A stretch of DNA of 64,000 nucleotides from Lodderomyces elongisporus (taxonomy: Eukaryota; Ascomycota; Pichiomycetes; Serinales; Debaryomycetaceae), in assembly GCF_030384665.1 (NCBI RefSeq), contig NC_083680.1, forward strand, positions 839,001 through 903,000, in the 5' to 3' direction. The position numbers and the translations under genes are program-made. Of this stretch, positions 33,333-64,000 are shown one piece after another; positions within the stretch are counted from its first letter, which is position 1, and every line of letters starts with the position of its first letter. The notes beneath the pieces were generated by a model that saw only the letters and a list, made by a program, of their open reading frames with translations, was not told where the DNA came from and ran no database searches.

Positions 33333-33763
33333 CTATTGGCAGCACCCCGTTTTGCAGCACCCATTTGGTTTTTTGTTACGACGCGTTTGGTAGCGCATAC
33401 AATTGCACACACACTGCTGAGCTACCTGAAGGGACTTCCTCGCCGTTCTGTTCCCCTCACTTCCTCGCGGGTTTTGCAACCAAAATGTATATGGCATAAC
33501 ACAAGTTACTTGTTAATCCCCAACCACAAGGCGTGACTGGAGGGCTACCTGGTGAAGTATAAATATCCACAAACAAAACCCTTGTGACCTCAAACCTTCT
33601 TTTACCCTTTTCTTCTTCTTCTTTTCTTTCTTCTTTTCCTTCTTCTTTTCCTTCTTCTTTTCCTTCTTTTACCACAATTAAACACACAACCAAGCCTTAC
33701 TCGACAACATTAACCAGATTTTACAATCAATAATTTAGTAAGACTACAATTTAAAAATTAACA
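33333..33763 (+). promoter_or_regulatory. Family promoter/leader, unit A
   Basis: About 430 bp nearly identical to 57754-58170 (B) and 62343-62759 (C). It contains TATAAATA at 33558-33565, followed by CAAAACCCTTGTGACCTC and a CT-rich TTCTTCTTTTCC tract (about 33597-33675), then an A-rich leader ending AAAAATTAACAATG. The arrangement (TATA, pyrimidine tract, A-rich leader) is that of a functional yeast promoter. The frame antisense to this segment is open in all copies only because the DNA is conserved. Confidence 0.7.
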
Positions 33764-35407
33764 ATGCCCTTTTTTAATAAATGTTTTCAAAACGTCTTTG
33801 CAAAGGATTCCAAACCTTTTTACTTTTCCAAAAAACTTGGATCTCAACTGCCTGTCCAAGAATCTATAATTCCAGAAGAGGCCGAAAGGTTTCTCATTGC
33901 TGAAGGTGTTAGACGCTCCACAATTGCCGGTAAGAAAAGACCGTGCAAAAGAGGTGATGTTTTCAAAGTGTCCTTGCTGTTCCAGGGGTTGAGGACAAAA
34001 TTCAAATCGTTCAACCCAAAGATGTTCCAATGGATGAAATGGTTGCAGCAAGTAAACGACACCGATTTTATACAATCGTTTGTTTCGAAGCAACATTCTG
34101 TGGTTAGAATTGGTGAGTCTGCATTTACATCTGCTGATAAAAAGTATCTCATCTACAGAGTTTCAAAGGAACACTTTGAAGAAATTGAAAGTGAAGTTGC
34201 AAATTCAACTACTCTCTGGGAAGAAGATTTAGTTTTGCCTCCATATCTTCATCTTTTTAGTATGAAGGTCTATGATGAGGACAGGTACTATACTATAAGC
34301 CCTGTTCTTGACAACAAGGCTGATAGGGAGTACCCTTCGGAACAAGACACAAACAGCGCTAACTACACAAACAGCGCTAATTACACAAACAACACTAGTT
34401 ACACAAACAACACCAATTACACAAACAACACAAACAACACAAACAACGCTAACAACGCTAACAACACCAACAACACCAACAACACAAACAACGCTAACAA
34501 CACCAACAACACCAACAACGCCAACACCAACACCAACAACAACACCAACAACGCTAACAACGCTAACAACGCTAACAACACCAACAACACCAACAACGCC
34601 AACAACAACAACAACACCAACAACACCAACAACATCAACAACACCAACAACACCAACAACACCAACAACGCTAACAACACCAACAACAACAACAACAACA
34701 ACAACACCAATGATGCTAACTACATAAGTGATTTCATTTCTACACGAAACACTTGCTATATCAATGAAGCTTTGTCTACTGCGCATTGTTCCCGCACGTC
34801 GTGGCAACACATATACTGTATTGACCAAGATAGTATAATGGGCACTATCGGAATTCCAATGCTTGCCGAGGAGAGGGAGAATCTACTCTTAAAGCTTTCA
34901 CAACAAACAAAACATCTTGTAGCTCAAAAGAAAACAAACTACAAGCTTGTTATAGGAATTGTCTTTAATGAGAAAATTCGACCAAAAATCCAAGTTTGGT
35001 TTGACGCCCACCACCGAATTTATAAGGGAGAGGGCAGGATTAAGACTCTCTTCAGGTTTGGCAAAGCAAAGGCCAGAACACCTGAAGAGTATGCTTCATG
35101 GTTGCTAGAAAGTTTAGATCAACACATTGAGGTTATAGAGGGGGAACTACATCCAGAAAACTTTGAAATCACGACACCACCCCTAAGTACCAGCCTCACT
35201 TGCTTCCTAAATAGCATTAAAGCGAGTTTCAAAAAGGTTTTTAAACTCTTTTTGAATCTATCCAAGGCTCTGCGAATTGCAGAACTTGGACAAAGCTTAA
35301 TTAATGCTAAAAATAAAAAACTAAAAAAACCAGAAAAACTAAAAAAACCAAAAAAACGAAAAAAACGAAAAAAAAGAAAAAAAAAAACACGAAAAAAAAG
35401 GGATTAA
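33764..35407 (+). CDS. Unit A gene 1: unrecognised Asn/Thr-repeat protein with family N-terminus
   Basis: 547 residues, no family recognised. The first 16 residues (MPFFNKCFQNVFAKDS) are identical to those of the unit B and C genes; from residue 17 on there is no resemblance. Residues ~17-190 form a plausible globular region. Residues ~195-315 are Asn/Thr/Ala repeats. Residues ~325-500 form a second globular-looking region, including SIKASFKKVFKLFLNLSKAL, which loosely resembles the basic aromatic repeats of unit B. The last ~35 residues are Lys/Arg/Pro-rich. No signal peptide or membrane segment is obvious. The frame ends just after A-runs; a one-base shift there would extend it by about 48 codons into a tail (DAVP...TISQTQP) that also ends gene 2. 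Expression is likely given the conserved promoter; function unknown. Confidence 0.7.
   Translation: MPFFNKCFQNVFAKDSKPFYFSKKLGSQLPVQESIIPEEAERFLIAEGVRRSTIAGKKRPCKRGDVFKVSLLFQGLRTKFKSFNPKMFQWMKWLQQVNDTDFIQSFVSKQHSVVRIGESAFTSADKKYLIYRVSKEHFEEIESEVANSTTLWEEDLVLPPYLHLFSMKVYDEDRYYTISPVLDNKADREYPSEQDTNSANYTNSANYTNNTSYTNNTNYTNNTNNTNNANNANNTNNTNNTNNANNTNNTNNANTNTNNNTNNANNANNANNTNNTNNANNNNNTNNTNNINNTNNTNNTNNANNTNNNNNNNNTNDANYISDFISTRNTCYINEALSTAHCSRTSWQHIYCIDQDSIMGTIGIPMLAEERENLLLKLSQQTKHLVAQKKTNYKLVIGIVFNEKIRPKIQVWFDAHHRIYKGEGRIKTLFRFGKAKARTPEEYASWLLESLDQHIEVIEGELHPENFEITTPPLSTSLTCFLNSIKASFKKVFKLFLNLSKALRIAELGQSLINAKNKKLKKPEKLKKPKKRKKRKKRKKKTRKKRD
34353..34710 (+). repeat. Asn-Thr/Asn-Ala coding minisatellite in unit A gene 1
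   Basis: Irregular tandem array of AAC codons alternating with ACC, ACA or GCT, giving (N)(N/T/A) repeats. The opposite strand reads as a Val-rich frame, an artefact. Confidence 0.9.
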
Positions 35408-35549
35408 GACCGAAGTTAAAAGACACCTTGATCCTGATGCTATTCCAGATGCTATTCATCTTATTGATCCTGATGCTGTTCCTAAAGCTATTTCTGATGT
35501 TACCTCTGTTGCTGCTTCACGGATGACTATATCACAAACCCAACCATGA
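35403..35549 (+). pseudogene. Out-of-frame C-terminal tail of unit A gene 1
   Basis: In the frame shifted from gene 1, a 48-codon stretch runs from 35403 to TGA at 35547-35549 with Asp/Ala/Pro-Val repeats and ends MTISQTQP. The same ending occurs at unit B (~60560-60640) and in unit A gene 2. This suggests the original gene 1 ended here, and that slippage in the preceding A-runs (35370-35400) moved the stop upstream. Alternatively, programmed frameshifting reaches it. Confidence 0.5.
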
Positions 35550-35764
35550 TCCCAAAGCAGGGGAGCCCACCGACCTCTGCTACCGTTTCCCATAGCCAAC
35601 CACAACATTGCACTAGTGTAGCTGCCGACTCACACATTTATTCTGAACTTGGCAGATCCTGCGACAAAATGGCGCCTTTGTCGTATGATCTTGTACGGGG
35701 GACGAAAAATGTGGAGGACGCATATGCACTAGGGGTATCAACAAGGCACAGCGGGATCATATAA
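35546..35764 (+). CDS. Conserved 72-codon frame, unit A
   Basis: Starts MIPKQGSPPTSATVSHS and ends VSTRHSGII. Its ATG overlaps the TGA of the preceding tail frame (ATGA). The unit B copy (60642-60860) differs at about four bases, two of them amino-acid changing, but the surrounding non-coding DNA is equally conserved, so this is not evidence of coding constraint. No family recognised. May be only shared 3' sequence. Confidence 0.3.
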   Translation: MIPKQGSPPTSATVSHSQPQHCTSVAADSHIYSELGRSCDKMAPLSYDLVRGTKNVEDAYALGVSTRHSGII

Positions 35765-35944
35765 TCACAGGTTGAGTTGTATAAGTCACTGTGCAAGTTG
35801 TTTCAGATGGTGCAGAAGAAATGCTTGTGGAATCAGTTCTCGGGGTTTAATTTTGCTACATAATAATCATTGTTTGCTCGTGGTGGAATAGCTTTACTAC
35901 CACTACTACTGCTGCTACCACCACCACTACTATTAATATTTATC

Positions 35945-36286
35945 ATAGAAATCATAGAAATCATAGAAATCATAGAAATCATAGAAATCATAGAAATCAT
36001 AGAAATCATAGAAATCATAGAAATCATAGAAATCATAGAAATCATAGAAATCATAGAAATCATAGAAATCATAGAAATCATAGAAATCATAGAAATCATA
36101 GAAATCATAGAAATCATAGAAATCATAGAAATCATAGAAATCATAGAAATCATAGAAATCATAGAAATCATAGAAATCATAGAAATCATAGAAATCATAG
36201 AAATCATAGAAATCATAGAAATTATAGAAATTATAGAAATTATAGAAATTATAGAAATTATAGAAATTATAGAAATTATAGAAATC
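35945..36286. repeat. 9-bp minisatellite, 38 copies (ATAGAAATC)
   Basis: 342 bp of perfect-length 9-mers. Most are ATAGAAATC, about seven near the right end are ATAGAAATT, and the last reverts to ATC. It is open in several frames on both strands as a consequence of the 9-bp period. Unit B has only a few ATATTTATC-type units at the matching place (~60998-61040). Confidence 0.97.
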
Positions 36287-36332
36287 ATATTTGGCATAGT
36301 GTGTGCTATCCAGTGTCGACCAAACTCAAAGC

Positions 36333-36449
36333 ATGCGCTTCAAAGTTGTCAAAAATTTTACTGGTGTTATTTCTGGTGGTGTTGCTGATGCTGTTCCTAA
36401 TATTGCTGCTGCTGCTCCATGGCCAACTATATCACAAACCCAGCCATAA
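36333..36449 (+). CDS. Unit A gene 2: small ORF with family tail
   Basis: 38 codons: starts MRFKVVKNFTGVISGG, runs through an Ala-rich stretch and ends PTISQTQP, the same ending as the gene 1 tail. It is preceded by a leader (GTGTGCTATCC...GTCGACCAAACTCAAA) shared with unit B at 61045-61077. It may be a collapsed paralogue of gene 1 (compare MPFFNKCFQNVF). Too short to be confident it is translated. Confidence 0.35.
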   Translation: MRFKVVKNFTGVISGGVADAVPNIAAAAPWPTISQTQP

Positions 36450-37528
36450 TCCCCAAGAAGGAGAGCTCACCAAAAAGTGTGCCCGTGTTCAAACACCACA
36501 AAGGGCCCTGCTACTACTTATTTTATCCGTCACTGGCACGCACACACTTTTGGTATCTCCCATTGCACCTGCATCTTCGCTCGTTTAACATATACAGCTT
36601 TCACTCGTTTTCAGGAATACATCATGGTGAGGGACTCAGTGAGTTTTGCTACTAATATATGCACTTTTTTTTCTAATATTAACACACCTTTCTGTTTATG
36701 TATACACTCTGCTATTTGTAATTGAACCATTCTTCTATTTCGCACTCAGCCTACAAACGAAAGTAAACACTAAAATTTACGACCTAGTTGTTGTTGTTCT
36801 TCTCAAATTGAACGTTCTGTATATTTCGCGCAATCGCTGTCATTGCAAACTAGAGTATCTCGGACTGGAGTATGTGTATGTATACGCGCACGTGAGCTGC
36901 TGTGAACGAGTCAACCTAAGATACACGTAAGATATACGCAAGATGTACAAGGTTGTGAATTGTGTTGTGCTATCTTGCATCCAAATACACAATTCATTTA
37001 CTCTGGTCGTCGACTTTCTGATACAGCCACACGCTATTGGCAGCACCCCATTTTGCAGCACCCATTTGGTTTTTTGTTATGACGCGTTTGGTAGCATAAC
37101 AGCGGTTCTGTCGTCCACACTTTCAATCCTTTAAGGTCCATTTCCAAATAATAGCTATTTTTCAAGTTTTTTGGCACTCCATCATAATACAATTTAAAAT
37201 TATTAAGTCTGTTTTATAGTAAGAAGAAAAAGTGGCTTAGGCTCTTGTAATTGACTAACAATAATATTTGGTTTGCTGAATGCTGGAATCCTACACTTAG
37301 CTACATACTGTTTATTCTATTGAAAGTATCAGGAAAAAATATATTAGTCGAAACAATTTACTTCAAGTCGTGAAATCGAGTTTTGCAGGTGGAGCAAAGT
37401 TTTAAAGCATAGACAGTGGCAGGCAAACCATGCTCGTCGTCAAATACCTTCTATTCTTGTTCAATAATTCTTTGTACACCTATATCATTTTTGTAGTCGT
37501 AGTTCATTGTTCCCTAATCTTCCAAGAT
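36450..37528. other. Unit A 3' region and right flank
   Basis: No gene seen. 36425-36470 repeats the 3' sequence of gene 1 in diverged form (CTATATCACAAACCCAGCC...). 36650-36930 matches 61570-61800 of unit B, including TTGAACGTTCTGTATATTTCGC and a short GATACACGTA-type repeat. The 62-bp direct repeat at 37034-37095 closes the unit. 37096-37528 is ordinary AT-rich DNA downstream of ORM1. Confidence 0.55.
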
Positions 37529-38530
37529 TTAATACAAGGTGACTCTTAATCTATGAGCAAACGCTAATTTTGGAATCACCACGCAGAGACAGCTTAGTCC
37601 ATTTAGCAAAAACAAGTTTAAATCGTATTTTGAATAATGAGTACTGATTAAGAATAGTCCAATTGGTACAAGCATCAAGAATTTCTTTGTAGGAGTGTAT
37701 TGATCACCATTATCAATTTGTTCCCACATCGTCAAATTATCGTAAGCACCACTATTGAATTCAAATGGTGTGCGTTTAACTTGGTGAAACATGATATACG
37801 AGCCAATAGTGTACGTGAGGTTTGTCAACGTCCATTTCCAATCATTATCCAAAACGCTAATGAAATTGTAGAAGATCTTGAGCAAAATGATAATCACTAT
37901 ATGAATTACCCACGCACCTTTTTGATTCACCCAATTGGCATTCACATTAGGATTTAGCGCCTGATCAATCTTGGTGTCCAAAGTGTCTGGTTCCAAGTGT
38001 TGGATTAATGACGAGGATCGGCGCTGTCTGGTAACGATATGTGCGGGTTGGTGGTGAGATGGCGTGGGGGTGAGGTCATTGGTTGTTGTACCACTATTAC
38101 TTCTAAACCGAGATGGAGAGGAGCCACTGGCAACACCACCGATTGTTGTTGGAGCGTAGCTGCTTCGTCTAGAGCGCGGAGAGCCAGGGTTTGATTGTAC
38201 AGAAGTGTGTCCTGTTGCGTATGATGACGATGGCGATGAAGTAATGTGCGATGGCGATGTATGAGACACGTTCAAACAGTTTTTCGAAAGGGGATCAATT
38301 GAATTTTGTGACGCTTGTGCCGCTTGTATGGGGACACCAGCAAAGGCATTGCTGGAGTTGGCAGTTGTAGAAGAAACGCCCTTTGTTCCGGTTGCAGCAT
38401 TATAGGAGGATCCTCTAGATATCGATGGAGGCTGTCTCAATTCCTGCTGTTGACTTAAAGGTGGCGTTATCTTAATCTCCGCAGGCTTGAGTAATGGAGA
38501 TTCATTAGAGTTGGAGGAAATGTCCGTCAT
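37529..38530 (-). CDS. ORM1: ORM family protein (ORMDL), regulator of serine palmitoyltransferase
   Basis: 333 residues. The C-terminal ~140 residues are a typical ORMDL domain: NPNVNANWVNQKGAWVIH, LKIFYNFI, NLTYTIGSYIMFHQVKRTPFEF, YDNLTMWEQIDNGDQYTPTKKFL and two to four hydrophobic helices, ending HRLRVTLY. ORM proteins sit in the ER membrane and inhibit serine palmitoyltransferase, setting sphingolipid synthesis; in S. cerevisiae their N-termini are phosphorylated by Ypk1. Here the N-terminus (~190 residues) is Ser/Thr/Pro-rich and much longer than in S. cerevisiae, with RRSSYAP- and RRSSSLIQ-type basic-Ser sites suited to such control. ORM1 versus ORM2 cannot be told apart; only one ORM gene is visible here. 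A CAA/CAG (AAC-phase) repeat fills the leader immediately upstream. Confidence 0.92.
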   Translation of the reverse strand: MTDISSNSNESPLLKPAEIKITPPLSQQQELRQPPSISRGSSYNAATGTKGVSSTTANSSNAFAGVPIQAAQASQNSIDPLSKNCLNVSHTSPSHITSSPSSSYATGHTSVQSNPGSPRSRRSSYAPTTIGGVASGSSPSRFRSNSGTTTNDLTPTPSHHQPAHIVTRQRRSSSLIQHLEPDTLDTKIDQALNPNVNANWVNQKGAWVIHIVIIILLKIFYNFISVLDNDWKWTLTNLTYTIGSYIMFHQVKRTPFEFNSGAYDNLTMWEQIDNGDQYTPTKKFLMLVPIGLFLISTHYSKYDLNLFLLNGLSCLCVVIPKLAFAHRLRVTLY

Positions 38531-39378
38531 TTCGTTGTTGCTGTTGTTGCTGTTGTTGTTGTTGTTGTTGTTGCTGTTGTTGCTGTTGTTGTTGCTGTTG
38601 TTGCTGTTGCTGTTGTTGCTGTTGTTGTTGTTGGTTTCAATTTAAAAAATAAATTAATATCGTTATCTAGAACCGTTGATTTACTGTTGTTATTGACAAG
38701 TCGTGCCTTGTGTGGAAAGCAGGAAATATCAACAAATAAGTAATGTGGAAGTATAAGATCTTGTATTAGTGGAGGACCAAAAAATAATAAGTGTGATGAT
38801 GCTTTAATGTGACGGCAATCAATTTTATTTGGTCTTAAAGAGAAAAAAAGGGCGAGAGGGCGTGAGGGTGGAGGTTGATCACAGTCATTGACTTTTTTCT
38901 TCTTTTTTTTTTTTATTTTTTTATTTTTATTTTTTTTTTTTTATTTTTTTTTTTTTATTTTTTTAATTTATTTAATTTTATTTTATTTTAATTTAAGTTT
39001 TTAATTTTTCCTTTGGTTCCTTCGCCTTTTTTCCTCTTTGTTTATGATTTTTTGTTCCTCTTTGGGTCTGTTTAAAGCTCTATGAGACTTTCTCGTGTAC
39101 GATTCAATCTTTGAAGAAGTTAATAAAGTTACTATCTGTTAACTCTTTTTAATCGTCGCCTCTTTTATTCCCAATATTTATCAATGCCTTTTTAAGGCTG
39201 ATTTCCTGCCATTTTCAATTTACTTCAGAATTCGATAGTCATATAGTTCAATGCTAAGTTAGTTAGTTAGTTAGTTAGTTAGTTGCTTGTAATTTATCTT
39301 TCTTTCTTCTTTCCTACTACATAGAACGAGATTTAAATGCACTACAAATAACTATTTGTATTACATTACATAGACCTA
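38531..39378. other. ORM1 upstream / SAF1 downstream region
   Basis: No gene seen. Contains the leader repeat, a long T-rich tract with interspersed A (about 38888-39005) and an (AGTT)n repeat near 39258-39284. These probably include the ORM1 promoter and the SAF1 3' end. Confidence 0.5.
38533..38634 (-). repeat. CAA/CAG repeat in the ORM1 5' leader
   Basis: About 100 bp of CAA/CAG triplets ending a few bases before the ORM1 ATG. In the ORM1 frame it reads Asn/Ser codons with no upstream ATG before an in-frame TAA, so it is presumably 5' UTR. Confidence 0.85.
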
Positions 39379-41463
39379 TCATTCCGCGGGAACATATACA
39401 CCACCAGAGTGCCAGCCACTAGCAGCGATGCAAACCCATTTTCCTTTTGACGTACATTTTTTCCCAGCATTTTCAGCATTTTTAGTATTCTTATTGCTGA
39501 CATCTCTACCCTCATGTAAAGGACCCCTGAGTGGATCCCTAACTCTCATTGGTATTTTCACATCCATATTAGCGCCGCTTGCAAAGCAGACTGTAGGATT
39601 TAGCTCAACCGCCGACTCTCTCGATCCGATTCCTAAACATCCACAACTTCTAGACTCCGTACCCCAACTGAGCACATCACCATTATTAGTCAATGCGAGG
39701 TAGTGATAGTCTCCAATCTCTATCGACTTTATATCCTGGCCCTGTAACTCATTAATAACAATCGGTAAAGTCCCGTTTTCAGGGTGCGGTTCCCAATCAC
39801 TTTCATTCTCTACATCATTATGTCGAGTGGTGGAATATAACAAGTGCTCATTGTTTCCAATCAAAACATGGTCGTGGTTTGTGAAAACGACAAAGTTGTT
39901 GAAACAACTTTTTAGCTTAGTGAACTGGACATTTTCCATTTGTTCCACTAGCCAGTTATTGAAATTGTCCATTGCATAAATATTTCTTGTCAACTCTTCT
40001 TGCCCCACTGTATTTGAATCATCTCTGGATGCTAGTTCGTGGGCATTGAATCTAAACTGATAAAGTTTGGAATCTGATTTTTTGACATAAAGCACGTAAT
40101 CAGCTCCAACTGTGAAATCCTTGATATCGTTTTTTGTAAAAGGAACAACCAAGTAGTTTGCTTCACTTTGGAAATTTTGATTCTCAAATTGCATTTTACT
40201 AATGGGTTTCCTAGTATACCAGACAAGCAAACCAATATCCTGAATAAAACACGCCGACAAGTTCCATCCAGCGGCAATCTTACTAATTATTGCATTTTTG
40301 GAAATACCTCTAAACACAATATTTATTCCAACATTAGTATTGCAACCAGTGTCCCAAGTGTAAATGTTATTATGATTATCCAATGCAACAATGTGTTCTC
40401 GTCCAGTACTTATAGATGTAACTTTTCTTTCATCACAAAAATTAATCGTACCAAGACTACGGCGCTCAGTTGCGGGAGGTAAAAAAAGACGCGAAAGAAA
40501 GTTTGTCTCTTGTATTTTCGACGATGAATGAGATGCAATTTTTGGTAGATCATTCCTTTGTGAAGATTGAAGCCCTCTTCTAGCTTGTGGAGTGCTGCTA
40601 GAACTCAGAAGTGGAGGAGCTTCGGATACGTTTGATGTATTTGTTGTGGGTAATGGTGGTATTGGAGCAGCAGTAATTGGGCCGGTGATAGTATCTGTCT
40701 CCTCATCGCTCTCACTATCCGAGTATCTCATTGCTATACCTGGCATAGGCAACACTCCAAACCTTGTTCCATGTGGCGGTAATGGTGATTGATAAGGAGG
40801 TATAAGGGCACCACCTTCATCACCAAGATGATTTGTTGGGTGGTTTCTTCGAAGGTTTCTCCTGCCTCCCAAAATTTCACCATCTACGTGGTTTCTACCC
40901 ATACTGAGCAACGCCAAAGTTGCGGGATTAGGCTTATAGTCTCTCTCTTTCGTAGGCCCAGGAGTCGACAATCCTTGTTGCGGCCGCTTCCAGTCCATTC
41001 CGGTAAACCAAATGTCACCATTATTCAACAATATAATAAAGCTGTACCCATTGGCTTGCAAATCGACAACAACGTGGTTATTGAACTCCGGAACGTTTGT
41101 TGGAGTGTGCACGGACCAGCCACCTAGTTTCTTCAGTACATGTGATTGGTCAATCTTAGTTGATAAGTACCCTAAACGTCCACCATTGCTTTCTCCCCAA
41201 GTGAACACTTGTTGCTTTGGGTTGCATCGAAGATTAAACAACTGTTTCCAATTAATCTTGTCACGGAGACTTAGAGTATAGTTGTTTTCATTATTAGTAA
41301 ACTTTTTGTTGTATAACAATTGATAGATTGTGTTGGACAAACAAAAAATCTCATATAAAGCCTTGTTGAGTGTGAAGAACTTGACAATTTGTTCTGGGGT
41401 CAAATAACGTGCTATACCAGATGTCAATATATCTTCGCTAAGATCGGTGATTGTTAAGGCCAT
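39379..41463 (-). CDS. SAF1: F-box / RCC1-repeat protein, SCF-associated factor Saf1-like
   Basis: 694 residues from the ATG at 41463 (MALTITDLSEDIL). Residues ~5-55 are an F-box-like helix bundle (LSEDILTSGIARYLTPEQIVKFFTLNKALYEI). It is followed by RCC1-type beta-propeller repeats: VFTWGESNGGRLGYL near 95, IYTWDTGCNTNVG, LLVWYTRKP, and DVLSWGTESRSCGCLGIGS near the end. This combination matches S. cerevisiae Saf1 (637 aa), the substrate adaptor of an SCF ubiquitin ligase that targets vacuolar/lysosomal proteins and adenine deaminase Aah1. A Ser/Pro-rich insert of about 130 residues interrupts the propeller. Upstream lie CACGTGAC (41786) and TATATAAAA (41798). Confidence 0.85.
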   Translation of the reverse strand: MALTITDLSEDILTSGIARYLTPEQIVKFFTLNKALYEIFCLSNTIYQLLYNKKFTNNENNYTLSLRDKINWKQLFNLRCNPKQQVFTWGESNGGRLGYLSTKIDQSHVLKKLGGWSVHTPTNVPEFNNHVVVDLQANGYSFIILLNNGDIWFTGMDWKRPQQGLSTPGPTKERDYKPNPATLALLSMGRNHVDGEILGGRRNLRRNHPTNHLGDEGGALIPPYQSPLPPHGTRFGVLPMPGIAMRYSDSESDEETDTITGPITAAPIPPLPTTNTSNVSEAPPLLSSSSTPQARRGLQSSQRNDLPKIASHSSSKIQETNFLSRLFLPPATERRSLGTINFCDERKVTSISTGREHIVALDNHNNIYTWDTGCNTNVGINIVFRGISKNAIISKIAAGWNLSACFIQDIGLLVWYTRKPISKMQFENQNFQSEANYLVVPFTKNDIKDFTVGADYVLYVKKSDSKLYQFRFNAHELASRDDSNTVGQEELTRNIYAMDNFNNWLVEQMENVQFTKLKSCFNNFVVFTNHDHVLIGNNEHLLYSTTRHNDVENESDWEPHPENGTLPIVINELQGQDIKSIEIGDYHYLALTNNGDVLSWGTESRSCGCLGIGSRESAVELNPTVCFASGANMDVKIPMRVRDPLRGPLHEGRDVSNKNTKNAENAGKKCTSKGKWVCIAASGWHSGGVYVPAE

Positions 41464-41785
41464 TGTTACTTCTAGCAACTCTTAGCTGTGAAAATTGCAA
41501 ATAAAGTTGACTTTCAATAATGATTGCTTATTTGGTCGGAGCGAAGCGGGGGTTGCCGATGAGAGTAATGAGTGGGTATCTGACGATGGGGTTTTGGGTG
41601 TGTGTATGTGTGTGTGGAGGGGGGGCCGGGGCGGTGGTTCGTGATATCTTTTGTACAATTGTGTTTGCCATTCAACTTGATACCTTTTGATTTTGTGTGA
41701 CGAAAGTCAAAACTTATTAATATTAACGAAATAAGTTCTCCGAAAAAAGAAAAGAAAAAAGTAAAAAAACAATTCAGCACAGAGG

Positions 41786-41806
41786 CACGTGACCTACTAT
41801 ATAAAA
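41786..41806. promoter_or_regulatory. CACGTGAC with adjacent TATATAAAA
   Basis: CACGTGAC at 41786-41793 followed by TATATAAAA at 41798-41806, in the divergent region between SAF1 and FTR1, about 320 bp upstream of SAF1. The TATA reads toward the plus strand, yet FTR1 starts 1.9 kb away, so its target is unclear. Confidence 0.35.
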
Positions 41807-42477
41807 TGAATTTTGAATTTTGAATCTTTTTGTTTATTTATTCAACTTTTGCAAAACACAAGGATTGCTTGCTTCGTTAAGGAAATGGGAGTAGGTGTCA
41901 GACCATTTCTGCTCTTCATACTAGTTTGTTTTTAAACAATAATTTTGGAGATAAGAAGGGAGCGTGTATTAAATTTTTGCAGTATCATTAAGCTCAAAGA
42001 AGCAAATAAATTGTAGTGAGAAATGAGATATACTTGGAACATATATTGCTGATGTTGCAACATTAACAATGTTTAACCAAAAGCTGTTAGAAAAAAAAAC
42101 AAACAAACTGGCGACAACAACAACAGCAACAACAAGAAAGTAAAATACCTTCTTCTGTATCAAATATCAAACGTGCACATATATTGATCTCATAAATACA
42201 GAGCGAGTTGAATGATGATGTTTTTCAAAAGTTTCGTCCGTCTTTTTTTAATCATTTTTTTTTTAATTAATTTTTGTAATTTTTATTTTCTTTTTCTCAA
42301 GATTAACAAGGAACGACATCAAGAATGTTTTGCAACATGCCATCCCTTCTTGTGTATTTTTTTGTTTTCTCTCTATTTCAATTGCAAGCCAAGTCAATTC
42401 AATTCAATTCAAGAAGAACAATATGTCTTGTATACAACAGTTGAGGGTTTCAATACCCGAGTCGCGTAACCTAGATA

Positions 42478-42500
42478 TTATCTGATTGGATAAATATTGG
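42478..42500. promoter_or_regulatory. Clustered GATA and CCAAT motifs upstream of FTR1
   Basis: TTATC (42478-42482), ATTGG (42485-42489), GATAA (42489-42493) and ATTGG (42496-42500) fall within 23 bp. In Candida, GATA sites are bound by the iron repressor Sfu1 and CCAAT boxes by the Hap/Hap43 complex at iron genes. The cluster is 1.2 kb upstream of the FTR1 ATG, so linkage is a hypothesis. Confidence 0.3.
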
Positions 42501-43221
42501 TAGCAAAAAAAAAAAAAAAAGAAAAAAAAAGAAAAAACAGAAACAAAAAGAGGCTACATGTGGGTTGACATTAGTAGCGAATAGTTGAATGGGATTATAT
42601 AAAAGCCACCTTTTAAATTGGCCGTTCATAACTTTGCATTAGACATTTCCATTTCCATTGCCTTATTCTCCCTTTCTCCCTTTCTCCCTTTCTCCCTCTG
42701 CCTCTTCTCTTCTCTCTTCAAGGTTTACAGAAGAATAGGAACAATAAAAAAGTGTAATAGAAAATAATAGAAAAGAAAAAAAATAAATAAAAATTTATGT
42801 GAGAGGATATAGACACTACCGAATGGTTTTGATTCTTTGTAGTGTGTTTTGCCCATGTGAAGATTGAGAGAGAGAGAGAGAGACTGGGAGAGAGAGAGAC
42901 AGACAAAAAAAAAGTATATATTAATCTGATAATGCGAAAAGGTGTATTTGTTGGAAAGGTGAAAATGTATACCAACAATACAAAGAAACAAAAGAAGGCT
43001 TTGTCTACTTTTTCATGTTTTTTTTTTTTGCCAAAGCCACCTTAGTTTAGTTAGGTAGTATAGACTTTCCTTAACGCTATTGGATACATTCTTTTTTTTT
43101 TTTTTTTGTTTTTGTTTTTTTTGACCTGTTTCAACATAGACAAAGGGATGGAATAGATATACTCAAGGACAGAAAAAGGGAGAGAGGGGGAAAAAGTTAG
43201 ATGTCTATAGAGGAGTTTACG

Positions 43222-43230
43222 TATATAAAG
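43222..43230 (+). promoter_or_regulatory. TATA box, probable FTR1 promoter
   Basis: TATATAAAG about 500 bp upstream of the FTR1 start, followed by CT-rich DNA typical of yeast initiation regions. Implies a 5' UTR of several hundred bases. Confidence 0.4.
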
Positions 43231-43725
43231 GGCTTCGAAATTGCCTGTTTCCAAAACTTCACTGTCATCTTTTCTTTTCTTTTCTTGTATTTTTTGTTTT
43301 GTTTGTTTGTTTCTTTCTTACTTCTTCTTCTGCTTCTTCACCTGCCCCTTCAATTTTTAACCCTGATTTTGCTTTTGAAGTTTCAATAATCTCCAAAGTC
43401 CAAATTCAATTAGCAACAGTTTAATCACCACATATATTCTGGTTTATTTCATTTTTTTTTTTTTGTTTTACTTTTCTGCTAAGAACACCAAGTTACCGAT
43501 TAGCGAAACAGAAGTTGAAGATTTTTAGCTTGCATTTGTTGAAATAATATTACATTTCTTAGGCGTCGCCAGGATCAGTAACAGCAATAACAACAGCAAA
43601 AGCAATAACAACAGTATTGGTAGTAGTACTGGGAAAGAATAAATACTAATAACAATAATTATAATAATAACTCCCACACCTATTGAAACAACAATTGCAA
43701 CAAAGCTGCTTATAAAAAATTCATC

Positions 43726-48488: not shown

Positions 48489-48520
<32 letters not shown>

Positions 48521-49870: not shown

Positions 49871-49909
<39 letters not shown>

Positions 49910-55321: not shown

Positions 55322-56242
55322 CAATCACAATTCAGAAACTGATGTGAATGCGTATTACTTTCGTGGTTGTATAAAGATGGCAATGGAATGAATTGTTTAT
55401 TTCACATATACGTAGTTTCTTTCATATGTAATACATATATATATATATTTTTAAACGCGTTTTGCTACCCTCACACTACTACTCTATTTTGCTCTTTCTA
55501 TTTTTTTCTTTCTTTCTTTTTTCTTCGATACATTGAGTAGTCTCTTACGAATTTAGCAGCGAAAGCTATTGAGAAGATCTTTCGATAACTCTTGTAAATA
55601 AATAAGTAATACAATATCGACGTGTATTAAAGCCAACATGTGGTTTTTATGGGTGTTTTTCTTTTTTCTCTCTTTTTTTTTTTTTATTCTGAAGCCATTT
55701 GAATTTGGCTCTTTGCAATAGGTGCTTGTTTCACCATCTAAAAGAAGAGGCGAAGAAAAATATAATTCTCCAATTCCATCTTTACCTTTACCCCTTAATT
55801 CTTTTGACGAGTTACATATTTATATGTATGTATATATTTAATTTCTTCTCTTGGTTATTACCTCCTCGCTCACCAACCATTTCTTTTTCTTTAGGAAAAA
55901 AAAAAAAAAAAAGGAAAACCTTTTTGAAACAGAATCACACTCACATACCTATACCCTCCCCCTTATACCACTGCCCCTTGGAATTAAGAATCGAAAGCTC
56001 GTCAGTTGTGCACAATTTCATATTCCATATAAAGCTGTCTGAAACGCCACCAATTGATCACGGCTAAATCATACGCACGTACACACACCATCAACAAACA
56101 CGGGTTGAAAATCTCGATTGCATATTCACTCCACTGCAAGGCTGCGGTACTGACATCAGCATCAATTTCTCGATTCCCAGTAGTAAGATTTCTATCTAAT
56201 CAAACCAATACCAATAATACCAATAATACCAATAATACCAAG
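55322..56242. other. Divergent YPF1-RNH1 promoter region
   Basis: No separate gene. Contains TA tracts (55435-55450), T-runs (55670-55685) and an A-run (55895-55912). The last 210 bp (56033-56242) are an in-frame, ATG-free extension of RNH1 described separately. Confidence 0.5.
56033..56242 (+). other. In-frame ATG-less extension of RNH1, presequence-like
   Basis: From an in-frame TAA at 56030-56032 to the RNH1 ATG there are 70 sense codons without a stop, an ATG, or a single Asp/Glu codon. The segment has Arg, Lys and His scattered among Ser, Ala and aliphatic residues (for example ISIAYSLHCKAAV, SRFPVVRFLSN), the composition of a mitochondrial targeting sequence. Non-AUG candidates include TTG at 56054, ACG at 56060 and TTG at 56105. 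It ends in AATACC repeats (Asn-Thr). Confidence 0.4.
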
Positions 56243-57208
56243 ATGCCATATTATGCTGTGGCTAATGGCCGCTCAAAAGGTGTTTACACTAATTGGAATC
56301 AATGTAAAGATCAAGTGAATGGATATAGTGGAGCTCAATACAAAAAGTTTGATACTTTAAATGAGGCTAGACTGTTTGCTTCCGGAGGACGATCGGGGGG
56401 AGGATTAGGAGGAGGAAAATCAAGTGGTACAAGTGGAGGGTTTGGTGGTACCATCGGTGCAGGCGGTCGTTGGTATGAATCTGATAAGGTTGAGAAGCCA
56501 TCATCTGCACGGGTACCTTATGTGACAAATGCCAATCCAGTCCGTGACTCGATGACTTCTAAACTGTACACGAAGTCGGTGTCTCAAACAACTACGTCTA
56601 AAACCCCAGTAATTTTAGGCTCTTCGTTGAGCTTTTCACCTAATTACAACCTGGCTCATACATCAAGCTCTACACCTAAAGTCACCAAAATTTATACCGA
56701 CGGAGCTTCTCGTGGCAACGGCAAATCGCGTACTGCTGCTTCTGGATACGGCGTATACTATGGCAGAAATGACCCCCGAAATGCAGCTGTTCCTCTAAGT
56801 TCGGTAGATGATATTCACACTGTTGCACCCACAAACCAGCGTGCAGAGTTGCATGCGATCCATCACGCGTTAAAGAACATTAAAAATGAATTAGCCACCG
56901 CGCCTACAGGGAAACAATATTCCATTCATTCTGATTCTAAGTATGCTATGCAATGTGTTGATGAATGGTCGAATAAGTGGCTGAAAAACGGATGGACAAA
57001 TACTGCAGGGAAACCAGTGGCCAATGCTGATATTATCAAAGAAGCGGTTCAATTGAAAAATGAAATCAATGAAATCCATCAACAAAGAGGACACCAACCA
57101 TTGCAATTTGTCCATGTTAAGGGCCATGCTGGAGACGAGGGAAATGAAGCGGCTGACAGATTGGCAAACATTGGTGCAGACCAGATGGTGTCGAAGATCA
57201 ATAAATAA
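56243..57208 (+). CDS. RNH1: Ribonuclease H1
   Basis: 321 residues from the ATG at 56243. The N-terminus (PYYAVANGRSKGVYTNWNQC...YKKFDTLNEARLF) is the hybrid-binding domain (caulimovirus-VI type) that recognises RNA/DNA duplexes. A Gly-rich linker follows, then the RNase H fold with its catalytic acids: D in KIYTDGASRGNG (~153), E in NQRAELHAIHHAL (~201), D in IHSDSKYAMQC (~232), and D in HAGDEGNEAADRLAN (~305). The enzyme degrades RNA in RNA/DNA hybrids (R-loops, primers) in the nucleus and, in some eukaryotes, mitochondria. Length is near S. cerevisiae Rnh1 (348). The upstream in-frame extension could add a mitochondrial signal if translation begins at a non-AUG codon. A TA-rich tract (57243-57272) lies just after the stop. 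Confidence 0.95.
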   Translation: MPYYAVANGRSKGVYTNWNQCKDQVNGYSGAQYKKFDTLNEARLFASGGRSGGGLGGGKSSGTSGGFGGTIGAGGRWYESDKVEKPSSARVPYVTNANPVRDSMTSKLYTKSVSQTTTSKTPVILGSSLSFSPNYNLAHTSSSTPKVTKIYTDGASRGNGKSRTAASGYGVYYGRNDPRNAAVPLSSVDDIHTVAPTNQRAELHAIHHALKNIKNELATAPTGKQYSIHSDSKYAMQCVDEWSNKWLKNGWTNTAGKPVANADIIKEAVQLKNEINEIHQQRGHQPLQFVHVKGHAGDEGNEAADRLANIGADQMVSKINK

Positions 57209-57239
57209 CTAAGACAAATGTTATTAAGAGGAAGAAAAT

Positions 57240-57282
<43 letters not shown>

Positions 57283-57671
57283 ACATAAAAAGAAAAAAAA
57301 AAAAAGAGAGAGAGAGAGGTTAATATATTCGTTGGTCAGATACTAAATTTACTTGTATTATGAAATGAGTCTGTTTCTCATAGGTAAAAACTTGGTGAAG
57401 ATGATATATCATCACCATGTGGTATAATTCAAGCGGATTCACATATTAATCGTTTCCAGCATTTACCTTTTTCCAATACAATTGTCTTGCCACTAAATGT
57501 TGTACTTCTCCCGTGTGAAGGGGATTGTGCGAAATATACAGACCATTCAATCTAGGGAGGAACTCGATGAATTTTGCGAACTGGTTACACACATTTTTGT
57601 TCAATGTAGAACCACTCGTTAATTTTGCGCTCAGTCGACAAACAAAAGTATACCCAAAAATTTACCACATG
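57209..57671. other. RNH1 3' region and degenerate right end of an older repeat unit
   Basis: No gene. 57243-57272 is a TATA-rich tract, possibly RNH1 3'-end signals. From about 57600 the sequence (GAACCACTCGTTAATTTTGCGCTCAGTCGACAAACAAAAG) is a diverged match to unit A 36722-36765 and unit B 61640-61680, which suggests a decayed unit precedes B. Confidence 0.5.
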
Positions 57672-57753
57672 GTTGTAGATTGTGTTGAGCCAACATGCAT
57701 CCAAACATACAATTTATCCACTCTGGTCGTCCGCTATCTGATACAGCCACACA

Positions 57754-58170
57754 CTATTGGCAGCACCCATTTGGTTTTTTTGATATGACGCGTTTGGTAG
57801 CGCATACAATTGCACACGCACTGCTGAGCTACCAGAAGGGACTTCCTCGCCCTTCTGTTCCCCTCACTTCCTCGCGGGTTTTGCAACCAAAATGTATATG
57901 GCATAACACAAGTTACTTGTTAATCCCCAACCACAAGGCGTGACTGGAGGGCTACCTGGTGAAGTATAAATATCCACAAACAAAACCCTTGTGACCTCAA
58001 ACCTTCTTTTACCCTTTTCTTCTTCTTCTTTTCCTTCTTCTTTTCCTTCTTCTTTTCTTTCTTCTTTTCCTTCTTTTACCAGAATTAAACATACAACCAA
58101 GCCTTACTCGATAACCTTAACCAGATTTTATCATCAATAATCGAGGAAGACTACAATTTAAAAATTAACA
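57754..58170 (+). promoter_or_regulatory. Family promoter/leader, unit B
   Basis: Nearly identical to units A and C. TATAAATA at 57965-57972, pyrimidine tract about 58000-58078, A-rich leader ending AAAAATTAACAATG. Lacks a 14-bp internal duplication (GCAGCACCCC..TTTT) present in both direct repeats of unit A. Confidence 0.7.
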
Positions 58171-60202
<2,032 letters not shown>

Positions 60203-60207
<5 letters not shown>

Positions 60208-60220
60208 TATCGATATCACA
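60203..60220. other. 18-bp perfect palindrome over the unit B gene 1 stop codon
   Basis: TGTGATATCGATATCACA is its own reverse complement and includes the TGA stop at 60205-60207. Could be a dimeric protein-binding site or a chance feature. Confidence 0.6.
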
Positions 60221-60559
60221 AAAGAAACACAAAACACGAAAAACACAACACAAACTAAAAATAAAAACAATATTAACCAGAAAAACATCAATTTCTTCCA
60301 CTTTGACAAGTTTAAGACTCCCGTCGATTCATACTGCGGTGAATTGTGCCAATAGATCTGAGCTGCAGTTAACTTTGCAGACATCCATTACATGAATAGC
60401 ACTAAACTGGGAACTAAGAGCCATTCTGAGGGCGACTTCATTACACTTTATAAGAGGGTCCCCATACTGCAGGTCACAGAAGAAGCCTTCAATAAGGTGA
60501 TCTCGTCCCGCCCAGAGTTGCTTGATATGGTCCTTAGAAATTCCCTTCTCTGTCTAAAG

Positions 60560-60645
60560 CTACCACCGATACTGTCACTGATGCTATTTCTGATGTTACC
60601 TCTGTTGCTGCTTCACGGATGACTATATCACAAACCCAACCATGA
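60560..60645 (+). pseudogene. Detached family C-terminal tail, unit B
   Basis: After an in-frame TAG, about 36 open codons end DAISDVTSVAASRMTISQTQP-type sequence and stop at TGA overlapping the next ATG. It is almost identical to the unit A tail, but lies about 350 bp beyond the gene 1 stop, so it is a relic here. Confidence 0.5.
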
Positions 60646-60860
60646 TCCCAAAGCAGGGGAGCCCACTGACCTCTGCTACCGTTTCCCATAGCCTACCACA
60701 ACATTGCACTAGTGTAGCTGCTGACTCACACATTTATTCTGAACTTGGCAGATCCTGCGACAAAATGGCGCCTTTGTCGTATGATCTTGTACGGGGGACG
60801 AAAAATGTCGAGGACGCATATGCACTAGGGGTATCAACAAGGCACAGCGGGATCATATAA
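60642..60860 (+). CDS. Conserved 72-codon frame, unit B
   Basis: Same as the unit A frame at 35546-35764 with two amino-acid differences by eye (one involves CTG, Ser in the CUG clade). No family recognised; conservation is no greater than in flanking DNA. Confidence 0.3.
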   Translation: MIPKQGSPLTSATVSHSLPQHCTSVAADSHIYSELGRSCDKMAPLSYDLVRGTKNVEDAYALGVSTRHSGII

Positions 60861-61077
60861 TCACAGGTTGAGTTGTATAAGTCACCGTGCAAGTTGTTTC
60901 AGATGGTGCAGAAGAAAAGCTTGTGGAATCTGCTTCCGGGGTCTGTTAATGTTGCATCAAAATCATTGTTTGCTCGTGTTGGAATAGCACCACTAATATT
61001 TATCATATTTATCATATTTATTATATCCAACATATTTATTATAGTGTGTGCTATCCGACGTCGACCAAACTCAAACT

Positions 61078-61161
61078 ATGCCATTTAAACTTGTCAAAAA
61101 TGTTTCTGGTGTTATTCCTGGTTGTGTCACTGGTTGTGTCACTGGTTGTGTTACTGGTTGA
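61078..61161 (+). pseudogene. Unit B gene 2: start matches unit A gene 2, broken by stops in the minisatellite
   Basis: Starts MPFKLVKNVSGVIPGC after the same leader as unit A gene 2, then runs into the 12-bp repeat (Gly-Cys-Val-Thr) where TGT to TGA changes create stops, the first at 61159-61161. The MPFK start also resembles the gene 1 start MPFFNK. Probably a dead paralogue whose repeat then spread the stop-bearing variants. Confidence 0.5.
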
Positions 61162-61563
61162 GTCACTGGTTGAGTTACTGGTTGTGTCACTGGTTGTGTC
61201 ACTGGTTGAGTTACTAGTTGAGTTACTAGTTGTGTCACTGGTTGTGTCACTGGTTGTGTTACTGGTTGAGTTACTAGTTGAGTTACTGGTTGTGTCACTG
61301 GTTGAGTTACTGGTTGTGTCACTGGTTGTGTCACTGGTTGTGTCACTGGTTGAGTTACTGGTTGTGTCACTGGTTGAGTTACTAGTTGAGTTACTGGTTG
61401 TGTCACTGGTTGAGTTACTGGTTGAGTTACTGGTTGAGTCACTGGTTGTGTCACTGGTTGAGTTACTGGTTGAGTCACTGGTTGTGTTGCTGGTTGTGTT
61501 GCTGATGGTGTTGCTGATGGTGTTGCTGATGGTGTTGCTGATGGTGTTGCTGATGGTGTTGCT
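61120..61563. repeat. 12-bp minisatellite, 32 + 5 units
   Basis: 32 units of GGTTG(T/A)GT(C/T)ACT-type sequence (61120-61503), followed by five units of GATGGTGTTGCT (61504-61563). Unit A has no such expansion. The opposite strand is open for 185 codons (61071-61628) as repeating Val-Thr-Gln-Pro. Confidence 0.95.
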
Positions 61564-61799
61564 GTTCCTGCTATTAATCTTTGCACTTTTTTTTTAATAT
61601 TAACACACCTTTCTGTTTTTGTATGCACTCTGCTATTTGTAATTGAACCATTTTTCTATTTCGCACTCAGCCTACAAATTATTTCTCAAATTGAACGTTC
61701 TGTATATTTCGCGCAATCGCTGTCATTGTAAACTGTAGTATCTCGGGTTGGAGTATGTGTATGTGTGCGCGCACGTGAGCTGCTGTGAACGAGTCAACC

Positions 61800-61893
61800 T
61801 TAGATACACGTAGGATACACGTAGGATACACGTAAGACACATGTAGGAGACAGGTAGGATACAGGTAAGGTACAGGTTAGATACACATAAGAT
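61800..61893. repeat. 10-bp minisatellite (GATACACGTA variants)
   Basis: About nine degenerate copies of a 10-bp unit, GATACACGTA/GATACAGGTA and relatives. The matching site in unit A (36918-36945) has about three. Confidence 0.8.
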
Positions 61894-62176
61894 GGACGCG
61901 CGGGTGCGTGTATACTTTACAAAAAACTTTACATAAAACTTTACAAAAACCACTACAGTGGGCAGCAGCATTGATAGGAGCACGATTCCCCCTATGTTCT
62001 AGAACTGATATAGGATCCAACGTAGGGTTCAACCTGGAACCCGGCCTATATGATGTAAATGTATGGGGCGGGGAGAAGGGGAGGGAGTAGCTGAGCCCAC
62101 AGTTTTCCTCAAACTTCAGTAGAAAAATGTTTCCCTGTAAATTCGCACCAGACTTGCTGGAATAATCAACACGCAA

Positions 62177-62228
62177 AAACAATTCTCGACTCATTGCCGT
62201 CAAACTTGCAATGAGTCGAGAATTGTTT
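62177..62228. other. Perfect 21-bp inverted repeat with 10-nt loop
   Basis: Arms 62177-62197 and 62208-62228 are exact reverse complements (core ACAATTCTCGACTCATTGC), separated by CGTCAAACTT. It sits just upstream of the unit C boundary. I did not see the same hairpin next to unit A or the left end of unit B. Confidence 0.9.
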
Positions 62229-62342
62229 GTGGAGATAGAATGCATTGCAGGATGTATAAGGTTGTAGATTGTGTTAAGCCAACATGCATCCAAACATACA
62301 ATTTATCCACTCTGGTCGTCCGCTATCTGATACAGCCACACA

Positions 62343-62759
62343 CTATTGGCAGCACCCATTTGGTTTTTTTGATATGACGCGTTTGGTAGCGCATACAATT
62401 GCACACGCACTGCTGAGCTACCAGAAGGGACTTCCTCGCCCTTCTGTTCCCCTCACTTCCTCGCGGGTTTTGCAACCAAAATGTATATGGCATAACACAA
62501 GTTACTTGTTAATCCCCAACCACAAGGCGTGACTGGAGGGCTACCTGGTGAAGTATAAATATCCACAAACAAAACCCTTGTGACCTCAAACCTTCTTTTA
62601 CCCTTTTCTTCTTCTTCTTTTCCTTCTTCTTTTCCTTCTTCTTTTCTTTCTTCTTTTCCTTCTTTTACCAGAATTAAACATACAACCAAGCCTTACTCGA
62701 TAACCTTAACCAGATTTTATCATCAATAATCGAGGAAGACTACAATTTAAAAATTAACA
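62343..62759 (+). promoter_or_regulatory. Family promoter/leader, unit C
   Basis: Copy of the unit B promoter at a 4,589-bp offset; TATAAATA at 62554-62561. No differences seen by eye from the unit B promoter. Confidence 0.7.
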
Positions 62760-64000
62760 ATGCCCTTTTTTAATAAATGTTTTCAAAATGTCTTTGCAAA
62801 GGATTCCGAACCCGCCAAACCCAAGGTTCGGTTTTTACTTCCAGGGGAGTCATCAGGCTCACCAATCTTAGAACCCAGCTCAGTCTATAGGGACTTCAGG
62901 TATCTAAGAAAAGCTGGAACTGAAACTTATGGCGAGATTTTTCAGAATAAGCTGGATTACACAGAGCCATCAACCGGAATACCATTAATTAGAAGGCGCG
63001 CTTTAGAAGCTGAGAATGCAAAGCAACCACCAAAGAACAGCCCTCCGCATTTCTCTCCACCAAAGTCGATCTTTGTACGCATTGCGGAGGATCCACGTGT
63101 TTTTCCCGATGATTTTATGGATATGCTGGATGGCACAGAAGTATCAGTTGCGTCAGAATCAGTTGTTTTGCAAAATGCAGAGTCAAGTTTGATCTATAAT
63201 AAACTTAGAGGTCCAGTAAATTTTGGAATTGATTTTTCCTCCGAGAGTCGCCAGACAAGGAGGGAGGATATAATTACGGAATCTGACACAGTAACAATCC
63301 TGAGGAGTGCTTCCCAAGTAGAGGAGGCATCCAATAACAGCTTCACCTCGCCCTATGACAGTCCAAGCCAACTTCAATTTCATGTTGCTAATGAAACCAC
63401 AGATGGAAACGCGGATGTACCATGTACATCTGCCTTATCAGAATTTGAGTCTAGCTCGGTGTATGATGATGAAATCATTCCGAGAGAGGCTCCATATCAT
63501 ATTGCTATTAAAACCACAGATGGAAACGCGGATGTACCATGTACATCTGCCTTATCAGAATTTGAGTCTAGCTCGGTGTATGATGATGAAATCATTCCGA
63601 GAGAGGCTCCATATCATGTTGCTATTAAAACCACAGATGGAAACGCGGATGTACCATGTACATCTGCCTTATCAGAATTTGAGTCTAGCTCGGTGTATGA
63701 TGATGAAATCATTCCGAGAGAGGCTCCATATCATGTTGCTATTGAAACCACAGATGGAAACGCGGATGTACCATGTACATCTGCCTTATCAGAATTTGAG
63801 TCTAGCTCGGTGTATGATGATGAAATCATTCCGAGAGAGGCTCCATATCATGTTGCTATTGAAACCACAGATGGAAACACGGATGTACCGTATACATCTT
63901 TTATACCAGAATTAGAGTCTAGCTCGCCCTATGACTTTCCAAGCGCATTTCCATTTCATGTTGCTATTGAAACCATAGATGGAAACGCGGATATACCGTA
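62760..64000 (+). CDS. Unit C gene 1 (partial, cut by the window end)
   Basis: Near-identical copy of unit B gene 1, open from the ATG at 62760 to the end of the window (413 codons), with no stop. It shares the MPFFNKCFQNVFAKDS start and the whole Ser/Glu-rich region. The 39-residue repeat block has four near-identical copies rather than three, two of them with Lys for Glu (VAIKTTDGNADVP), then the diverged NTDVPY and NADIPY units. The near identity over more than 1.2 kb of promoter and coding DNA points to recent duplication or gene conversion. The basic repeats and polyQ are expected beyond the edge. Function unknown. Confidence 0.7.
   Translation, partial: MPFFNKCFQNVFAKDSEPAKPKVRFLLPGESSGSPILEPSSVYRDFRYLRKAGTETYGEIFQNKLDYTEPSTGIPLIRRRALEAENAKQPPKNSPPHFSPPKSIFVRIAEDPRVFPDDFMDMLDGTEVSVASESVVLQNAESSLIYNKLRGPVNFGIDFSSESRQTRREDIITESDTVTILRSASQVEEASNNSFTSPYDSPSQLQFHVANETTDGNADVPCTSALSEFESSSVYDDEIIPREAPYHIAIKTTDGNADVPCTSALSEFESSSVYDDEIIPREAPYHVAIKTTDGNADVPCTSALSEFESSSVYDDEIIPREAPYHVAIETTDGNADVPCTSALSEFESSSVYDDEIIPREAPYHVAIETTDGNTDVPYTSFIPELESSSPYDFPSAFPFHVAIETIDGNADIP
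63381..64000 (+). repeat. 117-bp in-frame tandem repeat, unit C
   Basis: Four near-identical 117-bp units plus two diverged ones, the last cut by the window edge; one more unit than in unit B. Confidence 0.9.

Follow-up and report, generated by a model that had tools for sequence, protein, structure and literature searches.

We describe here a family of gene-bearing repeats in the yeast Lodderomyces elongisporus, three units of which (A, B, and C) lie in a 64,000-nucleotide stretch of chromosome 8 (contig NC_083680.1, positions 839,001 to 903,000; C8:839001-903000), referred to below as the window. All of the results are computational, and they come from this stretch and from the 16,086,460 bp genome with its eight chromosomes (C1-C8). 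The family comprises 141 units, nearly all in tandem arrays, and many of its products are predicted to be catalytically inactive relatives of phosphatidylinositol phosphate (PIP) kinases. CTG is read as serine in this species, and the family reading frames are open under either reading.

Units A, B, and C

An initial annotation of the window had described one dispersed unit (A) between the genes SHM2 and ORM1 and two tandem units (B and C) after RNH1, sharing a leader, their opening codons, conserved 3' blocks, and boundary direct repeats. The neighboring genes are supported by Pfam SHMT, ORMDL, and RNase H1 domains, and the shared framework stands: all three units have the leader (96% identical between A and B over 462 bp), the first 16 codons are exactly alike in A and B, and the conserved 3' blocks of A and B are 94% identical over 424 bp; the 3' part of C lies beyond the window, and in the genome it is the same as the family 3' block. 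A is solo and B and C are tandem as proposed, but they are a small part of a family arranged in ten arrays, which we name by chromosome and strand (C2+, C2-, C3-, C3+, C4-, C5-, C6-, C7-, C8-, and C8+, with the strand omitted where this is unambiguous).

Unit A (33327..36939, forward strand, as are all of the unit features below) is of the C6 type, with which it aligns across one entire period (94.9% over 3698 columns against a C6 array unit, and 98% in the coding sequence). It starts with a 66-bp unit-start motif (33331..33396) and a promoter and leader (33334..33763) in which a TATA box and a pyrimidine-rich 5' leader are apparent by eye. Over aligned columns, with gaps uncounted and the C8- leader of only 136 bp omitted, the A leader is 97% identical to that of C6 and 84-95% identical to the full leaders of the other types. 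The coding sequence (33764..35407) specifies a 547-residue protein, counting CTG as serine, that is homologous to the C5 and C2- types and is a predicted pseudo-PIP kinase. It contains an N-lobe part (33992..34315, approximately residues 77-184), an Asn/Thr-rich microsatellite linker inside the kinase domain (34352..34726), and a C-lobe part (34850..35143, approximately residues 363-460). A non-coding conserved 3' block follows at 35514..35892, and farther into the 3' part of A, 35943-36290 is taken up by an extended series of 9-bp repeats (ATAGAAATC and ATAGAAATT).

Despite the direct repeats that bound it, A is not a clean insertion. The repeated motif is real in A, B, and C, but the pair at A is simply the unit-start motif, the right-hand copy belonging to a truncated following unit. 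A sits between two scraps of lost neighbors: 57 bp from the 3' tail of the unit that preceded it (33277..33333, 73-82% identical to unit junctions in five arrays) and 159 bp from the head of the unit that followed (36938..37096, containing pre-motif sequence and the unit-start motif). The left scrap stops at about the expected start of the junction hairpin described below, and a short ACACAC stretch forms its join with the unit-start motif. Because scraps of neighbors flank A on both sides and A spans a whole C6-type period, it is most simply explained as the stump of a former array; alternatively, an array fragment may have been inserted at this site.

B and C are the first and second units of the 8-unit C8+ array (approximately C8:896757-935410). 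Unit B (57757..62345) measures 4589 bp from start to start, and its coding sequence (58171..60207) encodes 678 residues comprising the family N-terminus, 39-residue repeats (approximately 58758-59291), basic FKPFxW repeats, and a terminal polyglutamine tract, with no in-frame kinase domain. Behind the stop codon is a fossil of the kinase N-lobe (60293..60553), out of frame with the B open reading frame (ORF) and containing two stops, that is 64% identical over 87 residues to the intact C3+ type (E 6e-32, in a small comparison). B and C retain the kinase only in this fossil form, and their branch probably lost the domain through a frameshift in or near a (CAA/AAC)n tract. The non-coding 3' block of B (60610..60990) is identical in all eight units of the array. 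Unit C occupies 62346..64000 and runs past the window end; its coding sequence starts at 62760 and specifies 705 residues in the genome. A KVRF sequence (58234-58245 in B) is present in the N-termini of types B, C5, and C2- and is absent in A; we take it to resemble the PP1-docking RVxF motif. The C8+ array is flanked by two RNase H1 paralogues that are 45% identical, at 56243-57208 in the window and at L026:5410-6414 (C8:936410-937417), and it looks as if the array entered a duplicated RNH1 locus.

Genome-wide arrays and their junctions

A census with a 30-base leader pattern, allowing up to three mismatches on both strands, gave 129 genomic matches (41 forward and 88 reverse) against none for the reversed pattern used as a control, so that the likeness of the units is far beyond chance. 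The mismatch classes were verified on fetched units, and 12 further units with four mismatches (11 in C5 and one in C2+) bring the family to 141. The unit-start motif, counted independently, occurs 142 times (43 forward and 99 reverse), exactly one for each of the 141 units and one more at the right end of A. The arrays contain 30 (C2+), 27 (C2-), 15 (C3-), 2 (C3+), 10 (C4-), 12 (C5-), 12 (C6-), 16 (C7-), 7 (C8-), and 8 (C8+) units, and only A and one inverted unit at the edge of a C2 array lie outside them. Mean periods are approximately 3.4-4.9 kb, arrays reach about 115 kb, and the family spans approximately 560 kb, or 3.5% of the genome. On C8 the 7-unit array, A, and the 8-unit array together extend over some 187 kb, and the portion of this interval that was examined, the window, contains ordinary genes. 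Seven of the eight chromosomes carry units. All of the 129 leader and 142 motif matches belong to chromosomes other than C1, where more diverged relatives are possible, and a genome search with the Pfam PIP-kinase family PF01504 revealed no family relative on C1 besides one true kinase.

None of the arrays is subtelomeric: the one closest to a chromosome end is about 158 kb away and the other nine more than 300 kb, and a subtelomeric family is therefore ruled out by position. The head-to-tail arrangement of kilobase-sized units with a homogeneous interior is that of a macrosatellite or tandem multigene array, a feature that the initial annotation, although correct in recognizing a repeat-borne gene family, had missed along with its PIP-kinase ancestor. 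Over approximately 980 nt of leader and coding sequence per unit, interior units differ by 0-2 substitutions in C6 (12 of 12 units compared), none in C5 (9 of 12), 0-2 in C3- (6 of 15), and 0-6 in C8+ (8 of 8). The outermost 5' units differ from the rest of their arrays at 9-10 positions in C6 and 7-10 in C5, and decayed inverted pieces are found at the edges of the C2 and C8+ arrays. Within the inverted C2 edge unit, L044:3990-4490 has inverted TGTCACATAGC-like ends and is perhaps a solo long terminal repeat (LTR), as judged by eye. Ty3-like reverse-transcriptase ORFs, also recognized by eye, lie at C3:540160-546085 (L035:160-6085), about 4 kb from the C3- array.

The sequenced coding types are A/C6, C5, C2-/C4-, C2+/C8-, C3+, and B (that is, C8+/C3-), and C7- is grouped with B solely through its identical 3' block. 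Between types the full leaders are 81-95% identical and the 3' blocks are conserved to about the same extent, whereas coding sequences are only 42-70% identical (the upper end being inflated by microsatellites) and the proteins 18-46%. Types therefore resemble one another more closely in their non-coding frames than in their coding regions, and the description of the family as a mosaic is well founded. The 3' block was considered as a coding exon and rejected, as its short ORF is disrupted by a 1-bp indel that distinguishes types; an Rfam scan of 57400-62800 in the window gave no match at the gathering threshold. By eye, the public gene models P0002 and P0004 end within 3'-block sequence. A given coding type can recur on different chromosomes at 98-99% identity (A/C6, C8+/C3-, C2-/C4-, and C2+/C8-), supporting the earlier suggestion of spread by recombination.

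A hairpin lies at the junction of B and C (62177..62228), with 21-bp perfect arms and a 10-nt loop; its inverted-repeat score of 21 compares with a maximum of 9 in 30 shuffles of the sequence. The best inverted repeats with perfect arms, taken from one junction per array, have arms of 21 (C8+), 21 (C3-), 17 (C5), 17 (C2-), and 12 bp (C6). Among the 39 unit starts with 420 bp of upstream sequence, 34 are preceded by the hairpin; an exact match is lacking before A and before four units at array edges. Genome-wide, the hairpin pattern occurs in at least 123 places (control, none). The loop occurs in two orientations, one shared by C8+, C6, and C3- and its reverse by C5, C2-, and C2+, and a decayed hairpin at the C6 edge is oriented opposite to the C6 interior. 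Four 5' edges were examined: the break falls at the start of the hairpin in C6 and A, a deletion crosses the hairpin in C5, and C8+ starts 33 bp beyond it.

PIP-kinase ancestry and coding constraint

A profile of the A/C6/C5/C2-/C4- branch searched against PDB returned 17 matches at E ≤0.01, all of them PIP kinases (best E 3.7e-10), placing the branch among PIP kinases by descent. With the C5 type alone, phmmer likewise found 17 of 17 PDB matches (E ≤10) to be PIP kinases, the best at 1.3e-5. Five of eight family members match PF01504 at E ≤1, the C2- type best at 5.2e-5 and the C5 type at 0.0017, both weakly. Across the genome PF01504 identifies two strong kinases, at C2:1950754 (344.6 bits) and C1:3023779 (120.4 bits), and, below threshold, units of the C8-, C2+, C5, C2-, and C4 arrays as well as a weak place at C4:1945964. 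The likeness to PIP kinases (PF01504, and PI5P4K in PDB) consists of a homologous N-lobe and a segment aligned with MDYSLLVGIH, and from these alignments a PIP-kinase fold may be expected for the products that keep the domain.

The family differs from PIP kinases, of which yeast Mss4 is an example, in its 141 units, in the low-complexity linker inside the domain of some types, in the fossil domain of B and C, and in two positions that we take to be the ATP-binding and catalytic residues. The lysine of RFVIKTV is replaced in five of five types, by Tyr in A, C6, C5, C2-, and C4- (YLIYRV at 34145-34162 in A), by His in C2+ and C8-, and by Ser in C3+. The aspartate of MDYSLL is lost in four of five types, being Asn in A and C6 (TNYKLV at 34934-34951 in A) and Gly in C5, C2-, C4-, C2+, and C8-. 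The family therefore lacks the pairing of lysine and aspartate expected of an active enzyme, and with the ATP lysine and mostly the catalytic aspartate gone we call its members pseudo-PIP kinases, predicted to be inactive. Homologue searches yielded seven proteins among the matches listed, named L. elongisporus or unnamed (in ENA); the candidates in two of these searches were probably filled by low-complexity words, so that absence outside the species is weakly supported.

The coding parts are maintained. Each unit has its own leader and, away from decayed edges wherever inspected, one long ORF. The main ORF is intact in all 36 units of the long fetched regions and in all five units sampled one by one from other arrays; of the 42 inspected singly, only the inverted C2 edge unit has a broken ORF. 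The ratio of nonsynonymous to synonymous substitution rates (dN/dS) was estimated for ten pairs with low-complexity parts excluded; the pairs are not all independent, as A and C6 are one type. Between types it is 0.46, 0.45, 0.29, 0.30, and 0.33 for five pairs, with a sixth saturated, and for three of four close pairs, each based on 5-14 changes, 0.36, 0.40, and 0.62. The family evolves fast, as had been supposed, yet under coding constraint. The public models P0002, P0003, P0004, and P0006 omit low-complexity parts, apparently as predicted introns, and differ from the uninterrupted ORFs.

Origin and maintenance of the arrays

We favor, as the probable though by no means secure explanation, a lineage-specific, selection-constrained pseudo-PIP-kinase macrosatellite family that unequal exchange maintains and that recombination carries from one chromosome to another. 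Its ancestor would be a PIP-kinase gene whose protein lost the catalytic residues, the B/C branch later having lost the kinase domain altogether. Arrays would grow and homogenize through unequal exchange, with the junction hairpin as the preferred break site (breakage at the hairpin could plausibly drive this process), and units may move between chromosomes through ectopic recombination or as excised circles. The mosaic structure would follow if the similar frames stay homogenized while the coding parts have become too different for gene conversion to act on them, and A would be the remnant of one such array. The least certain step is the function: the products may be cytosolic PIP-kinase-like decoys or scaffolds with a dosage-dependent effect on phosphoinositide signaling.

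Several observations weigh against this explanation. With respect to ancestry, all of the family PF01504 scores are under the gathering cut-off, the A and B proteins have no Pfam match, the genome-wide PF01504 list contains no C6, C3+, or B unit, and at E ≤1 the same search also matches, below the cut-off, one of 14 control genomes. Against PDB the C2+ type alone gives low-complexity or unrelated matches on top and PI5P4K matches only weakly (0.05), and two AlphaFold models have mean predicted local distance difference test scores of 36 and 33, too low for fold comparison. The C3+ type retains the catalytic-aspartate position, and one close pair has a dN/dS of 1.62 (one synonymous and six nonsynonymous changes). 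With respect to array dynamics, the C8+ array lacks a divergent unit at its outermost 5' position, the inverted edge unit at C2:2398195 is disrupted by an inserted stretch that appears LTR-like by eye, and the hairpin coincides with the break at just two of the four 5' edges, C6 and A. The putative dominant-decoy role is itself a weak point.

The main competing explanation, to which we give a minority but real chance, is that the arrays are centromeric or pericentromeric repeats marking or flanking each centromere, with the genes riding along. There is one array zone on each of seven chromosomes (P ~0.012 under random placement of seven zones), although the zones were defined after inspection of the data, and C1, the largest chromosome, has no unit, so that arrays are not present on every chromosome. 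Passages of Koren et al. 2010 (PMC2924309) predict L. elongisporus centromeres from GC skew, noting two scaffolds on which long repeats flank the skewed DNA and two more with one long repetitive region each, whereas passages of Ola et al. 2020 (PMC7263194) describe predicted centromeres that are mostly unique sequence. Stretches without a 150-residue ORF and with a change in the sign of GC skew lie beside C8+ (C8:941000-946800) and C6 (C6:766000-771000, left end unseen), but the flank skew derives from parts of only four arrays (C8+, C6, C3-, and C5), and beside C5 and C3- no gene-poor stretch with a clear switch is seen. The sharing of array types by non-homologous chromosomes would suit clustered centromeres, and the Ty3-like ORFs, as seen by eye, adjoin the C3- array; in contrast, the spread of the C8 family among ordinary genes is awkward for a centromere, and intact, constrained ORFs are atypical of satellites. 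A combined version, in which a protein-coding satellite occupies the centromere zones of seven chromosomes, is broken at hairpins, exchanged between clustered centromeres, and has its frames selected for a trans-acting product, strikes us as rather doubtful.

A selfish meiotic-drive or killer-type gene family spread by biased transmission is improbable. Conservation of the leader and first codons while coding sequences diverge, and the loss of a domain between related types, would be in keeping with such a family, and the species is described in part of PMC10484426 as diploid with asci containing several spores. However, units within an array are homogeneous, the Pfam scans identified no driver family, and an unsystematic search found neither a poison and antidote pair nor an alternative start.

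The unknown mobile process suggested initially could be a new kind of transposable element with the unit-start motif as its terminal repeat, and we consider this very improbable. A is an entire unit with the motif at either end, and types are common to several chromosomes; yet the main ORFs scanned have no transposase, integrase, or reverse-transcriptase Pfam match, in agreement with the initial finding of no transposition enzyme, A is the only one of the 141 units to stand off an array, no unit-less motif exists other than the right-hand one of A, and the ends of A are scraps of its neighbors rather than target-site duplications. The counts of motifs and units together with these scraps rule out the transposon reading of the end repeats of A.

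That the arrays are an assembly artefact is scarcely credible: interior units are nearly identical, and arrays of about 115 kb exceed the HiFi reads described in passages of Hoyer et al. (PMC10586162), but microsatellite length varies between units, the same passages report reads of more than 20 kb and agreement with an electrophoretic karyotype, the family protein P0007 carries the strain name NRRL YB-4239 on a contig of different length, and relatives at 97-98% identity are present on short ENA contigs. Exact copy numbers may still be wrong. The assembly is reported in those passages to add more than 0.6 Mb over all eight chromosomes relative to an earlier one, and collapsed arrays in the latter may account for part of this gain.

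Returning to the pseudo-PIP-kinase macrosatellite, its closest analogues in organization are the human gene-bearing macrosatellites D4Z4/DUX4 and DXZ4, in which units of a few kilobases, every one bearing an ORF or promoter, form long tandem arrays with a homogenized interior. The L. elongisporus family differs in occupying seven chromosomes of a 16-Mb yeast genome with arrays as long as about 115 kb, in its largely intact ORFs, and in the hairpin at most unit junctions. Like the TLO genes of Candida and the wtf genes of S. pombe it is lineage-specific, multicopy, and fast-evolving, but TLO genes are mostly subtelomeric and wtf genes dispersed near LTRs, whereas this family is tandem, chromosome-internal, and derived from a PIP kinase. 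A description of the family is absent from the open-licence literature searched (titles, starts of abstracts, and passages, with some of the listings dominated by unrelated topics). What is new here is the unexpected pseudo-PIP-kinase ancestry of a gene-bearing tandem macrosatellite, and yeasts do not usually have protein-coding repeat families so large and homogenized.

This small genome thus devotes a substantial share of its length to a catalytically stripped lipid-kinase relative, and the public gene models of the family, which differ from its long ORFs, are to be used with caution. If the family is real in vivo, it would provide a tractable yeast model for protein-coding macrosatellites and for non-coding frames that are kept homogeneous while the coding part diverges, and a possible lead to the undefined centromeres of a species able to infect people.

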